This document shows positions 1,087 through 21,421 of a stretch of 22,985 nucleotides of DNA, piece by piece (positions within the stretch are counted from its first letter, which is position 1; each line of letters starts with the position of its first letter). A program made the translations under genes and the position numbers. Below the pieces are notes generated by a model. It made no database searches, was not told the DNA's origin, and saw only the letters and a program-made list of their open reading frames with translations. Source of the stretch: Basidiobolus heterosporus B8920 (taxonomy: Eukaryota > Basidiobolomycota > Basidiobolomycetes > Basidiobolales > Basidiobolaceae). Location: contig JNET01032647.1 of NCBI GenBank assembly GCA_000697455.1, positions 1 through 22,985 of the forward strand, in the 5' to 3' direction.

Positions 1087-2111
1087 ATGTCTGATCCCTT
1101 CAATAATCCGTCATTTAATATTCAGGATCCGTACGTCGGATCCACAGAGAACTTCGAAGATGTTGGACTCGACGCTCCGCTTGGGTATCCTCTGTCTCCG
1201 ATGCTCAGAACCTCGGAAGAAACGAATCCAGAGCGTATGTCTACCGACAGTAGTGTCCCTCTGGTGCCTCCCCAAGTTGCCTCTGCAATTGAGGATTTGT
1301 ATGATAATCGAAATGCGCCACCGCCTAATGCTAGAAGATACCAGCAATTCATGGAGGAAAGAAAACAAAACATGCGCTACGTAGAACTCACTTCTGGTAA
1401 CCTGGTTCTGGACTGTCCGGTCCCAGATAAAGTGATACAAAACGTCCCATTTACCGATCACGAGGAATTCACGCACATGCGTTACACTGCAGCCACTTGC
1501 GATCCCAATGATTTCCTGAAGGAACGATACACCCTGAGGCCGGCACTCTACGGAAGATCCACCGAGCTGTTCATTGTGATGACCATGTATAACGAGAATG
1601 AAGAGCTTTTCATCAAAACCTTCACCGGTGTATTAAAGAACATCCACCATCTGTGTAAACGTTCCAAGTCTCGAGTTTGGGGTAACAACGGGTGGCAGAA
1701 GGTGGTCGTTTGCATTGTTTCGGATGGCCGTGCCAAGATCCACCCCCGTGTACTACAGGTTCTTGGCTTGATGGGCGTCTACCAAGAGGGTATCAACCAA
1801 AGCTCGGTCAATGGCAAACCCGTGACTGCCCACATCTACGAATTCTCTACGCAGAAATACGTGGATGGTGGATTCAATGTCCACAGTATTAAGGAAAACA
1901 ACATGGACCCTATCCAAATCCTCTTCTGCCTGAAGGAAAAGAATGCCAAGAAATTGAATTCTCATCGATGGTTCTTCAACGCATTTGCTCCACTCCTCAA
2001 TCCAAACGTATGCGTGCTTTTGGATGTCGGAACCAAGCCCAGCGGGACATCTATCTACCACTTATGGAAGGCGTTTGATCGGAACCCCCACTTGGGTGGT
2101 GCCTGCGGAGA
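1087..2111 (+). CDS. Chitin synthase (division 1, class I-III like), 5' part, broken by adapter
   Basis: Chitin synthase polymerises UDP-N-acetylglucosamine into chitin at the plasma membrane for cell wall and septum growth. This piece encodes 341 residues from the ATG at 1087. A short variable N-terminus is followed by the conserved chitin synthase N-terminal segment ([19 protein letters not shown]) and the start of the GT2 glycosyltransferase domain: [10 protein letters not shown] near residues 160-170, the conserved [10 protein letters not shown] block near 205, and [20 protein letters not shown] near 312-330. The frame runs to GGACGE and then enters the Tn5 mosaic-end adapter at 2112, after which the reading is artificial (VYKRQ). 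No intron is evident in this piece. The start is supported by its position just ahead of the conserved N-terminal block. The family identification is secure. The break is technical, not a natural mutation. Confidence 0.93.
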
Positions 2112-2130
2112 AGATGTGTATAAGAGACAG
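2112..2130 (+). other. Tn5 mosaic-end (Nextera) adapter sequence, copy 1
   Basis: The 19 bases AGATGTGTATAAGAGACAG are an exact match to the transposase-recognised strand of the hybrid Tn5 mosaic end used in Nextera-type libraries. The mosaic end is an engineered mixture of the outside and inside ends and is not expected in a natural fungal genome. It interrupts the chitin synthase frame and marks the left edge of an 865-bp library insert. Confidence 0.97.
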
Positions 2131-2995
2131 ATCGTATCCTGTGTTTCGAGTTGGTCGCCAAGAAAAACTCCAAATGGGTGCTGAAATACGTCAAGTCAGC
2201 CAAGGCTGAAACGGATGCTCCGGACTCTTGGCCAGAGTTTATTTCACAACGTCGTCGCTGGCTGAATGGATCCCTGTTTGCTGCCTTCTTTGCCATGGCT
2301 CATTGGTTCCAAATCTTCAAGACTGACCACGGAAGTGGACGGAAGTTCCTATTTATGATCGAATTTATTTACAGCAACATCGCTCTCTTGTTCAGCTGGT
2401 TTTCTGTTGGCAACTTCTTCTTGATTTTCTACTTCATTTCAAACAGCTCGATTCCCAGGAACGCGGAGGGACACATTATTAAGGGGCGTGTGCCTGACCA
2501 ACCGGATCCTTTCTTTGGAGCTTCTTGGTTGATTTACCCAATCGTTCGTGATCTGTTCTGTATGGGGATAATTGTGCAATTCATCCTGGCTCTTGGTAAT
2601 CGCCCTCAAGGATCTCGCTCCATTTATATCGCTTGCGTCTACCTCTTTGCCTTTGTAATGCTCATCATTACCTACACCATTTTCTTCAATATCGGACTTC
2701 ATTTCCTCGACAAGACTAATGTCCGACCTCTTGATGCCGCCCCCTTCGCCACTGAAAGCACAGACATCTATATTGCCATCGCATCCACGTATGGACTCTA
2801 CTTTGCCTCATCCTTTCTTTACCTTCAGCCATGGCACATGTTTACCAGCTTCATTCAGTTCGTATTCATCTTCCCCTCTTTCATCAACATTCTTATGGTG
2901 TATGCTTTCTGCAACACCCACGATGTATCCTGGGGCACCAAGGGCGACAACAAGGTTGAGAGCCAGCCTGCTCAGGCTAGCGGTAACGTTACCTC
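2131..2995 (+). CDS. Chitin synthase, later part (end of catalytic domain and membrane segments), bounded by adapters
   Basis: This 865-bp stretch encodes about 288 residues in a different frame from the upstream piece, because of the adapter and lost sequence. It begins in the [11 protein letters not shown] block, which in the family directly follows the catalytic ED residues. It then has the hallmark QRRRWLNGS motif (acceptor-binding, processivity), four or five hydrophobic membrane segments (around [74 protein letters not shown]) and the conserved SWGTKGDN motif near the end. Family members continue past this point with a further cytoplasmic stretch and final membrane helices. Here the sequence runs into the second adapter instead. 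It almost certainly belongs to the same gene as 1087-2111, with an unsequenced or dropped segment between them. Confidence 0.92.
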
Positions 2996-3014
2996 CTGTC
3001 TCTTATACACATCT
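2996..3014 (-). other. Tn5 mosaic-end (Nextera) adapter sequence, copy 2 (inverted)
   Basis: CTGTCTCTTATACACATCT is the exact reverse complement of copy 1. The order adapter, insert, inverted adapter is the structure of one tagmented library molecule. The reading frame through it gives the contamination peptide CLLYTS. The DNA after 3014 resembles the 3' flank of the next gene, not chitin synthase coding sequence. Confidence 0.97.
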
Positions 3015-3092
3015 TGTCAGTTATCTAATACTGCGCATAATTTTCGGATAGAGGATAGAGGATGAAGACACTTTCTATTGATCTTATACCCT

Positions 3093-15596: not shown

Positions 15597-17366
<1,770 letters not shown>

Positions 17367-18765: not shown

Positions 18766-19974
18766 TCACTCCTCTTGTGCCAACACTTTGCATCTTTCAA
18801 CAATATGCGCATAGGTCTTCTCGACATCAATAAGAAAAAATTGGATTGCCCGCTCGTTCCCGGATGTCATGCTTAGATAATGGAATATTGATTAGATATG
18901 GCAAGTGAAGTGGCTAAGTGATTTGCTTACCGTTGAAAGAACAAACTAATGCCATCGGATCCTAGTTTCACACAGTATTGCAGCACCAATGACTGGTGTA
19001 CAAAAGCGCGAGCCTCCTTGGAATATCCTGAAAGTTGATACTTGAAAGCCTCTGCCATAAGTTCATCCGCGTGCGCTTCACTAACTAATGAGAGATCTGC
19101 CTTTATTAGTTCGTAACTCTTGCTGTAGTTAGTCTGTAAGCCAAATTCAAGAAGGGCATCGGACGCTTCGACTTCCTCATATTCATCTTCATCCTCATCT
19201 TCGATTTCTACTTCTTCCTTTCCTGAATTCATGGTTGACGTCTAAGATAGCCATTAAGTATGCTGAAAATGAGCGTGCTTTAAAATGAAGTTACCTCAGA
19301 ATTAGTTGTCTTATCCACTGCGGGGTTAAGTACTTCAATGGTTTTAACTTTAGTCTTTCCGGTTGGTTCTGCTGGTTTCGGTTTGGCTATGACCTGTGAA
19401 ATAACGATGAGGAAGACATCAACCAAGAAAACATGAGATTACTTACAGTCTTGTCAAACGCGATATGACACACATTCTCGGAAGTCAACTTGTTCTTTTC
19501 CTCTTTCTCCAGTTCCTCAAGTTCTTCAGTACACTTTCGGGAAATTTCTGATAGTTTGTGTAAATGAAACTTCACTTTCTCTTTGATGTGCACCTCTTTC
19601 TCAGGATTACTATATTGCTTAACCTCCTCCATAATCTGACTTAACAGTACAAGCAACATATCGTCATAACTTGGCGCTTCTTTTTTGGATTCTGCACGCT
19701 TCTGTTCAAGTGTTATCATAACTTTGGCAAAAATTTGAAGGCCTTCTGTGTCAAGCTTTCCAGAGAGGTCTGAAAGACGTGAGAGAAGCTCTTTATTCAT
19801 AATGGTTTCTGAGCGAAGAGCTTCTATTTTCTCCTGTCTCTCTTGACGTTGCCTATGTATCTCTGCTTGACGCCATCGAATAAATGAGGCTTTGTCGACG
19901 TTAGGATGACATTCGATATCCTCGTCGTCGGAGATTTCCAGGTTATCCCACTTGGAATAGTTTAGGGCTGACAT
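18766..19974 (-). CDS. cdc37: Hsp90 co-chaperone Cdc37, short form (4 exons, 347 aa)
   Basis: Exons: 19974-19447, 19393-19295, 19241-18931, 18871-18766. Introns are 53, 53 and 59 bp, and the sum is 348 codons. Cdc37 recruits protein kinases to Hsp90 in the cytosol. The start at 19974 gives MSALNYSKWDNLEISDDEDI: the family N-terminus with a CK2-type serine (Ser15 in SDDED), followed by HPNVDKASFIRWRQ. A long coiled coil follows, then a kinase-binding/linker part (ENVCHIAFDKTV) and an acidic Glu/Asp stretch. The Hsp90-binding middle domain contains SYELIKADLSLVSE, DELMAEAFKYQLSG and FVHQSLVLQYCVKLG, continuing across the last splice (ISLFFQR|MTSGNERAI) to KTYAHIVERCKVLAQEE and TGA. The family C-terminal domain (roughly the last 90-100 residues in human) is absent, and I see no donor or later exon that would supply it. 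It faces the EF-Ts gene head to head. Confidence 0.93.
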
Positions 19975-20250
19975 ATTGAGATGATACAAGACAAGAACAA
20001 ACCCAATGATCAATCTGAAATTTAAGTAAGGTGAGGAATTCTGTATGTTCCATGATTAGTGGAATCAAATTTCTTCAGATGTTCAATGATAAATCATTAT
20101 TGTTGATTTAATTTTTAGATTAACTTAAACCAATATTGATCCAATTTTTCTGGATTTTGTCAATAGTCCACTGAGAAAAATTTATATTTTCGAAGCTAAT
20201 CCATACAACATCATCTTTCTTGTCATTCCCGAAGACGTCACTTTAAAAAC
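19975..20250. promoter_or_regulatory. Divergent Cdc37/EF-Ts promoter region
   Basis: 276 bp of AT-rich DNA separates the two start codons, so both promoters and leaders must fit here. On the minus strand an acceptor-like TTACTTAAATTTCAG ends about 40 bases before the Cdc37 ATG and could mark a leader intron, but no good donor is seen. No clear TATA box was identified for either gene. Confidence 0.5.
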
Positions 20251-21421
20251 ATGAGTATGAATCGTGTATGGAATGGAGTCAATGTTCTCGCTCCTCGCAT
20301 AAGTCTTTATTATTCTACACCTAGCGTTGTGCTCCCAATTTTTCAAAACAGACTTTTTAGTCAAACAGGATACAACTTTGATGCTGTAAAGCCAAACATC
20401 AAACTACTAGCCAAATTGAGACAGGAGACTCAAGTTTCAATGACTAAGGCCAAGGAAGCTCTTATCAAATGTGAGAATGTCTATGAAAAAGCCATTGAAT
20501 GGCTTCAAGAGGATGCTGTCGCAAGCGGAACTAAGAAGGCCGAAAAACTAGCGAGCAGAACTGCTAGTGAAGGCCTCGTTGCTCTCGTTTTGAACAACAG
20601 CTCCTCTGAATTTGGTGCAACGTCAACTGGAGCTCTTGTGGATGTAAGTGAAATTTGATTTCAGCAGTTTATATGTGTTCAACTCTAACAAGTATTATAT
20701 TTAGCTGAGTTGTGAAACGGATTTCGTATCTCGTAATGAGCTTTTCCAACAGCTCGCTACGCGCATTTCGAGCACTGCATTATTTTTGGAACCAGTTTCC
20801 CCCAACAACTCTGGTGTTTTCAAAGCTATCCACGAAGCCTCTATCGAGAATCTCCAAAGTGCTCCACTAATGCCCCATCCTTCAAGCACAGAGGCTGACA
20901 TTGACGGAACTGTACAGGAAGGAATCGCTGAGACTATTGGTAAGCTTGGCGAGAATATAGTTCTTCGCCGAGTTGCTGTATCCAGCGGTATTTCGAATGA
21001 ATCGGAAGAAGAGTTGATAACATCCGGATATGTTCACGGAGGGGACCAAAGTACTGGCAAAATCGGTGCTTTAGTAGTCCTGGGGGTTGCCGGGAAACCT
21101 AAGCAACCTGAGGAACTTCAGAAATTTGCACGTCAGTTAGCACGCCAAGTTGTTGGATTCAACCCCAAGTATCTTAGCGAGTCACATGCCAGTATTCCCG
21201 AGGATGTTTCGAAACAAGAGTTTTTGGAGCAGAATGTTCTCCTTAATCAGAGTTTCATGATGGGTGGTGGCTCAGTACACGAGGTAGTTGAGAGTTACTC
21301 AAAGTCGTTAGATGCTAGAGTTCGAATTTTGGACTTCGTTAGGTACGAGGTTGGTGAAGGAATCGAGAAACCGGTGGTGGCAGATTTTAGAGAAGAGGTC
21401 ATGAGCCAATTAAAGAAATAA
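20251..21421 (+). CDS. tsf1: Mitochondrial translation elongation factor EF-Ts (2 exons, 369 aa)
   Basis: Exons 20251-20643 and 20705-21421, with a 61-bp intron at phase 0; 370 codons with the stop. EF-Ts exchanges GDP for GTP on mitochondrial EF-Tu. The first 40 or so residues lack Asp and Glu and carry Arg, Ser and hydrophobic residues, as in a mitochondrial targeting peptide. Then comes the UBA-like N-terminal module (LLAKLRQETQVSMTKAKEAL ... AIEWLQEDAVASG). The hallmark core motif LVD|LSCETDFVSRNELF is rebuilt exactly across the splice junction. Two dimerisation-type subdomains follow: VLRRVAVSSG with GYVHGG, and GALVVLGVAG through FVRYEVGEGIEKP. There are two close in-frame ATGs (20251 and 20257), and either would keep the presequence. 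The call is secure; import is inferred from the presequence. Confidence 0.95.

Follow-up and report, generated by a model that had tools for sequence, protein, structure and literature searches.

Untrimmed Nextera/Tn5 mosaic-end adapter is a known kind of artefact in draft assemblies, and misassembly at the scaffolding or gap-closing step, with a collapsed gap, is another. The mosaic end (ME) was engineered as a combination of the natural Tn5 ends. In the available text of one source, hyperactive mosaic ends are substituted for the wild-type Tn5 ends, Tn5MErev is a 19-nt oligonucleotide, and ME-A and ME-B bear an outer arm beside the ME (PMC4248319); in that of another, the peptide DVYKRQ is encoded by the Tn5 inverted repeat (PMC11075570). 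We describe here two copies of the ME in a fungal draft genome, found in the whole stretch of 22,985 nucleotides that was analysed (the window). They sit within a chitin synthase gene, and we consider it highly probable that they are an assembly artefact, in which contig gaps in that gene were each closed through one untrimmed ME. Underneath lies an ordinary chitin synthase gene, and the scar has no biological function.

Both copies are exact matches to the 19-bp Tn5 mosaic-end adapter, AGATGTGTATAAGAGACAG, and they lie in inverted orientation around an 865 bp span (Table 1). They are the only ME matches in the window even when up to three mismatches are allowed, with a chance expectation of 0.02, and two matches were seen in none of 100 shuffled sequences. 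Peptides typical of the ME are encoded in the frames that run through it, with DVYKRQ in the ORF at 1087-2184, CLLYTS in that at 2151-3065 and SYTHL in that at 2719-3051; MCIRDR is also present, and SLIHI is given by another frame. The initial annotation had reported the two exact inverted ME bracketing 2131-2995 from the sequence alone, and both these and the contamination peptides are confirmed. Its views that both 19-mers are remnants of tagmentation adapter in the assembly, and that gene models derived from the locus would be wrong, are likewise supported. It had also taken the arrangement for precisely that of a single Nextera-type library molecule, and this does not hold: the outer Nextera adapter arms that would stand beside the ME in a complete molecule have no match at up to one mismatch anywhere in the genome, the window included.

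Sequence comparison identifies the left flank, the 865 bp middle and the right flank as parts of one chitin synthase gene, in order and on one strand. The left ORF (1087-2184) matches PF08407 (3.4e-29) and PF01644 (3.2e-74), and the presence of the Chitin_synth_1N and Chitin_synth_1 domains places it among the fungal chitin synthases. Its match to PDB chitin synthases (down to 7.8e-74) reaches the motif GACGE, and the middle part aligns with the same proteins further along (down to 1.5e-65), beginning at residue 605 of 7stl. For the left part the best-scoring relatives are named Gigaspora margarita and Basidiobolus ranarum, and for the middle part the name is again Basidiobolus ranarum. These names suggest a fungus that belongs to neither the ascomycetes nor the basidiomycetes. 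A second, ME-free gene of the chitin synthase type is present in the same genome on contig C165, and the 6001 bases fetched around it (C165:500-6500) are devoid of the ME. This paralogue is identical to the left part at 235 of 285 aligned residues. With the middle part it shares 177 of 270 residues in one frame, plus 21 of 21 in another, the paralogue being split at that point. We note that the paralogue is apparently split by introns, and it is used here as the yardstick for codon loss.

In the paralogue, 93 residues separate GGACGE from a 12-residue segment, and 106 residues separate GNVT from the C-terminal YLILRLIFG*. A set of 240 homologues (the best 120 of 1671 and the best 120 of 1985) gives a similar picture at the left ME, where the 106 members that match both sides show a median of 92 absent residues (range 4-121, unfiltered). 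None of these 240 best-scoring homologues carries either the 16-residue peptide listed in the initial annotation or LLYTS. The missing coding DNA amounts to about 280 bp at the left ME and about 320 bp at the right ME, and to more if introns lie there. One gene continues in order across both ME, and each ME fills a hole of missing coding DNA. In the window, a search at the Rfam gathering score gave no match and a tRNA search found none; the other ORFs observed are listed in Table 1.

Table 1. Features of the window, and tandem arrays punctuated by the ME on other contigs (positions are those of the window unless a contig is named).
Feature	Position	Strand	Remarks
Chitin synthase 5' part (Chitin_synth_1N + Chitin_synth_1)	1087..2111	+	cut after GGACG(E); Pfam, PDB, paralogue
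Left Tn5 ME, exact, 19 bp	2112..2130	+	window search; replaces ~93 codons (paralogue, homologues)
Native middle of chitin synthase gene, 865 bp	2131..2995	+	frame from 2133; PDB, paralogue
Right Tn5 ME, exact, 19 bp	2996..3014	-	window search; replaces ~106 codons (paralogue distance)
Chitin synthase last codons and stop	3015..3051	+	YLILRIIFG* at 3022-3051; paralogue end YLILRLIFG*
Ankyrin-repeat ORF, 1394 aa	6325..10509	-	
Phosphoglucose isomerase ORF	15597..17318	-	full Pfam domain covered
Cdc37 N-terminal domain ORF	19387..20013	-	
Elongation factor Ts, two ORFs	20251..21421	+	first ORF: mitochondrial N-terminal family match just below cut-off
Array L013	contig C123		period 456 bp
Array L016	contig C136		period 174 bp
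Array L018	contig C189		period 380 bp
Array L020	contig C228		period 217 bp
Array L025	contig C307		period 171 bp
Array L027	contig C313		period 502 bp
Array L033	contig C401		period 268 bp

The ME is not confined to this gene. Across the draft genome, which comprises 428 contigs and 8,137,145 bases, there are 64 exact copies in 27 contigs, and the reversed control pattern has none. Flanks were fetched from the 26 other contigs, so that all 64 copies were read, including the two of the window, and they collapse to 32 distinct junctions with 29 distinct body ends (the sequence before AGATG) and 32 distinct starts (the sequence after CAG). Truncated scars were sought with the 12-base ends of the ME. 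With the first 12 there are 64 matches, each of them within a full ME, and with the last 12 there are 68, four of them outside a full ME; the control pattern occurs four times in each case. At the four additional sites just 1-3 of the seven preceding bases match the ME, and these were rejected as truncated scars. In a separate observation, the start of the TruSeq adapter gave one 13-base match in the genome search (contig C316:4721-4733, minus strand).

The two sides of the junctions differ in character. Using a matrix of the nine bases that follow CAG, with leave-one-out scoring against random positions, we find a strong target-site bias at the 32 starts (z 8.19), in a base pattern that resembles the target preference of Tn5. 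When the same test is applied to the nine bases of the body side, reading outwards from the ME, no bias results (z -0.05, 29 ends). Since the bias is on the CAG side only, the typical junction joins a Tn5 cut on one side to an arbitrary end on the other.

At eight of the 32 junctions, the start that follows the ME has an ME-free copy 152-483 bp further upstream in the same fetched stretch, and in one of these backward jumps (L033) another ME lies in between. At the remaining 24 there is no upstream copy of the start in the fetched stretch, and four of these 24 are shown to join one gene in order: the two in the window, and one each at L023 and L024. At L023 the match is to a plasma-membrane ATPase and skips from residue 162 to residue 770 of PDB chains, so that about 600 codons are absent, and at L024 glycerol kinase is found on both sides, with FGGY_N positions running to 96 and then from 168 (Pfam, with frames assigned by eye). 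The hidden deletions range from about 0.3 kb in the window to 1.8 kb at L023, the latter by homology. A Pfam search covering 30 ORFs, from 18 of the 26 loci fetched, placed one family on both sides at L024 alone, L023 being added by PDB searches. Among the ORFs tested at L034, the C-terminal part of glycosyl hydrolase 32 is on the body side and the other side has no match; at L009 the start of an Hsp20 domain is on the body side, and the one other ORF tested gave nothing. We also note that at L016 and L028 a similar but non-identical copy is entered after the last ME, after 126 and 74 bases respectively, and this is perhaps a second haplotype or a repeat.

At seven loci the ME separates the units of tandem arrays with periods of 171-502 bp (Table 1). 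The array span from the start of the first unit to the last body end is 1349-1520 bp in all seven (counting a 106-bp piece as the first unit at L033), and although this measure was chosen post hoc, after inspection of the data, equal evenness never arose when 2-10 copies were drawn at random 200,000 times, and it arose in two of 2520 reassignments of copy number. A strict common cap (1608 <= T < 1710 bp) was considered and rejected, as it fails when counting is by body ends or by ME; it fits only a start-based count that includes a partial ninth copy in L016, under which one of 1260 reassignments and one of 200,000 random draws fit. The near-equal total spans make the arrays look like unrolled graph loops rather than satellites.

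We propose the following origin. Tn5 would have cut beside 2131 and 2995 with attachment of the ME, which the ME sequence and the genome-wide target-site bias support. Reads or contig ends would then have retained the inner 19 bp and lost the outer adapter, which is the state of the 64 copies found. An assembler or gap closer would next have fused the ME end with the arbitrary end of a neighbouring contig, dropping the bases between, and the join would have kept the right order and orientation, given that one gene spans the ME and lacks codons there. A target lying upstream would turn such a join into a loop, and the array lengths suggest that it was unrolled to a similar length each time. We infer the software step from the continuity of the gene with its missing codons. 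Leftover adapter in the reads together with gap closing accounts for the exactness of the ME and its one-sided bias, and for the ordered loss and the near-constant loops; the argument rests on gene continuity and the one-sided bias.

Several other explanations are to be considered. The initial annotation pictured a single tagmented library molecule of 865 bp, foreign to the locus and embedded in the assembly, and the inverted ME do enclose exactly 865 bp, as they would in such a molecule. The 19-mers are indeed adapter; however, the 865 bp between them form the native central part of a gene that both flanks continue in the correct order and on the correct strand, which refutes a foreign origin, and the outer adapters of an embedded molecule are missing. 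We therefore regard this reading as very improbable. The artefact was spotted correctly and described wrongly, as no fragment was inserted and the native gene instead has two holes, each filled with adapter; the single-fragment picture misses both the coding loss of some 280 and 320 bp and the 64 ME in 27 contigs. Still less credible, to the point that we give it almost no weight, is a natural or laboratory insertion of a Tn5-type element in the living fungus. Hyperactive Tn5 does use the ME as its ends, according to the available text of PMC4248319, but here the CAG ends face the gene middle, which is the wrong way, and no outward-facing ME surround an element body. Moreover the enclosed stretch and the sequence outside it belong to the same host gene, about 199 codons of that gene are absent, and the 9-bp target duplication is lacking, with the nine bases before and after the ME equal at none of the 32 junctions and the four 9-mers of the window all different.

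A more serious contender, which we nonetheless judge unlikely, is that the junctions are wet-lab chimaeras formed when blunt ends were ligated to ME-tagged ends during library making, with self-ligated circles among them. The body side without Tn5 bias agrees with this, as does the precise outer border of the ME copies found, and the backward jumps of 152-483 bp resemble self-ligated circles. Random ligation is not expected to give ordered forward skips within genes, however, as seen twice in the window and at L023 and L024, and the nearly equal total length of the seven arrays also argues against it. Two further candidates were rejected. A double-ME junction of which half was lost, as from mate-pair circles, should have a Tn5 cut on the body side, which shows no bias; and in the case of priming by the 19-nt bottom oligonucleotide, the body ends that can be seen free of the ME (L009, L013, L027 and L033) continue unlike the start of the ME. 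We thus favour the closing of contig gaps through a single untrimmed ME.

The value of the locus is as a quality warning, since it is an artefact and not biology. The 32 distinct junctions in 27 contigs make suspect any gene model, domain count or tandem-repeat call that crosses them, and at four of them the cutting of a gene is demonstrated. Searching with the 19 bases picks up all exact copies, and adapter can be told from genome by the one-sided bias test. The ME is also a marker of missing sequence, and excising just the 19 bases leaves a false join. If the proposed origin is correct, such scars could escape screens aimed at long vector or outer-adapter matches, and the same error may occur in other public drafts made likewise.

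A literature search for VYKRQ gave no match, and this type of error is not described in the titles or abstract beginnings among the matches listed, which is no proof of its being unpublished, nor in the available text of PMC7417191 or PMC11226609. We would suggest, tentatively and with rather less than even confidence, that it might constitute an undescribed class of error, characterised by gap closing through a single ME, a one-sided bias, hidden genic deletions of 0.3-1.8 kb, and loops unrolled to about 1.35-1.5 kb. As for the gene, it is like other fungal chitin synthases in having Chitin_synth_1N and Chitin_synth_1, and unlike them in carrying two assembly holes here. The likeness to untrimmed Nextera/Tn5 adapter lies in the exact 19-bp ME, the target bias on the tagged side and the ME peptides in the frames, but here one ME without an outer arm bridges neighbouring pieces and hides a deletion, and some of the ME are repeated in arrays. 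As in collapsed-gap misassembly, adjacent pieces keep their correct order and orientation and the bases between them are lost, although the gap is here occupied by 19 bp of adapter rather than by N.
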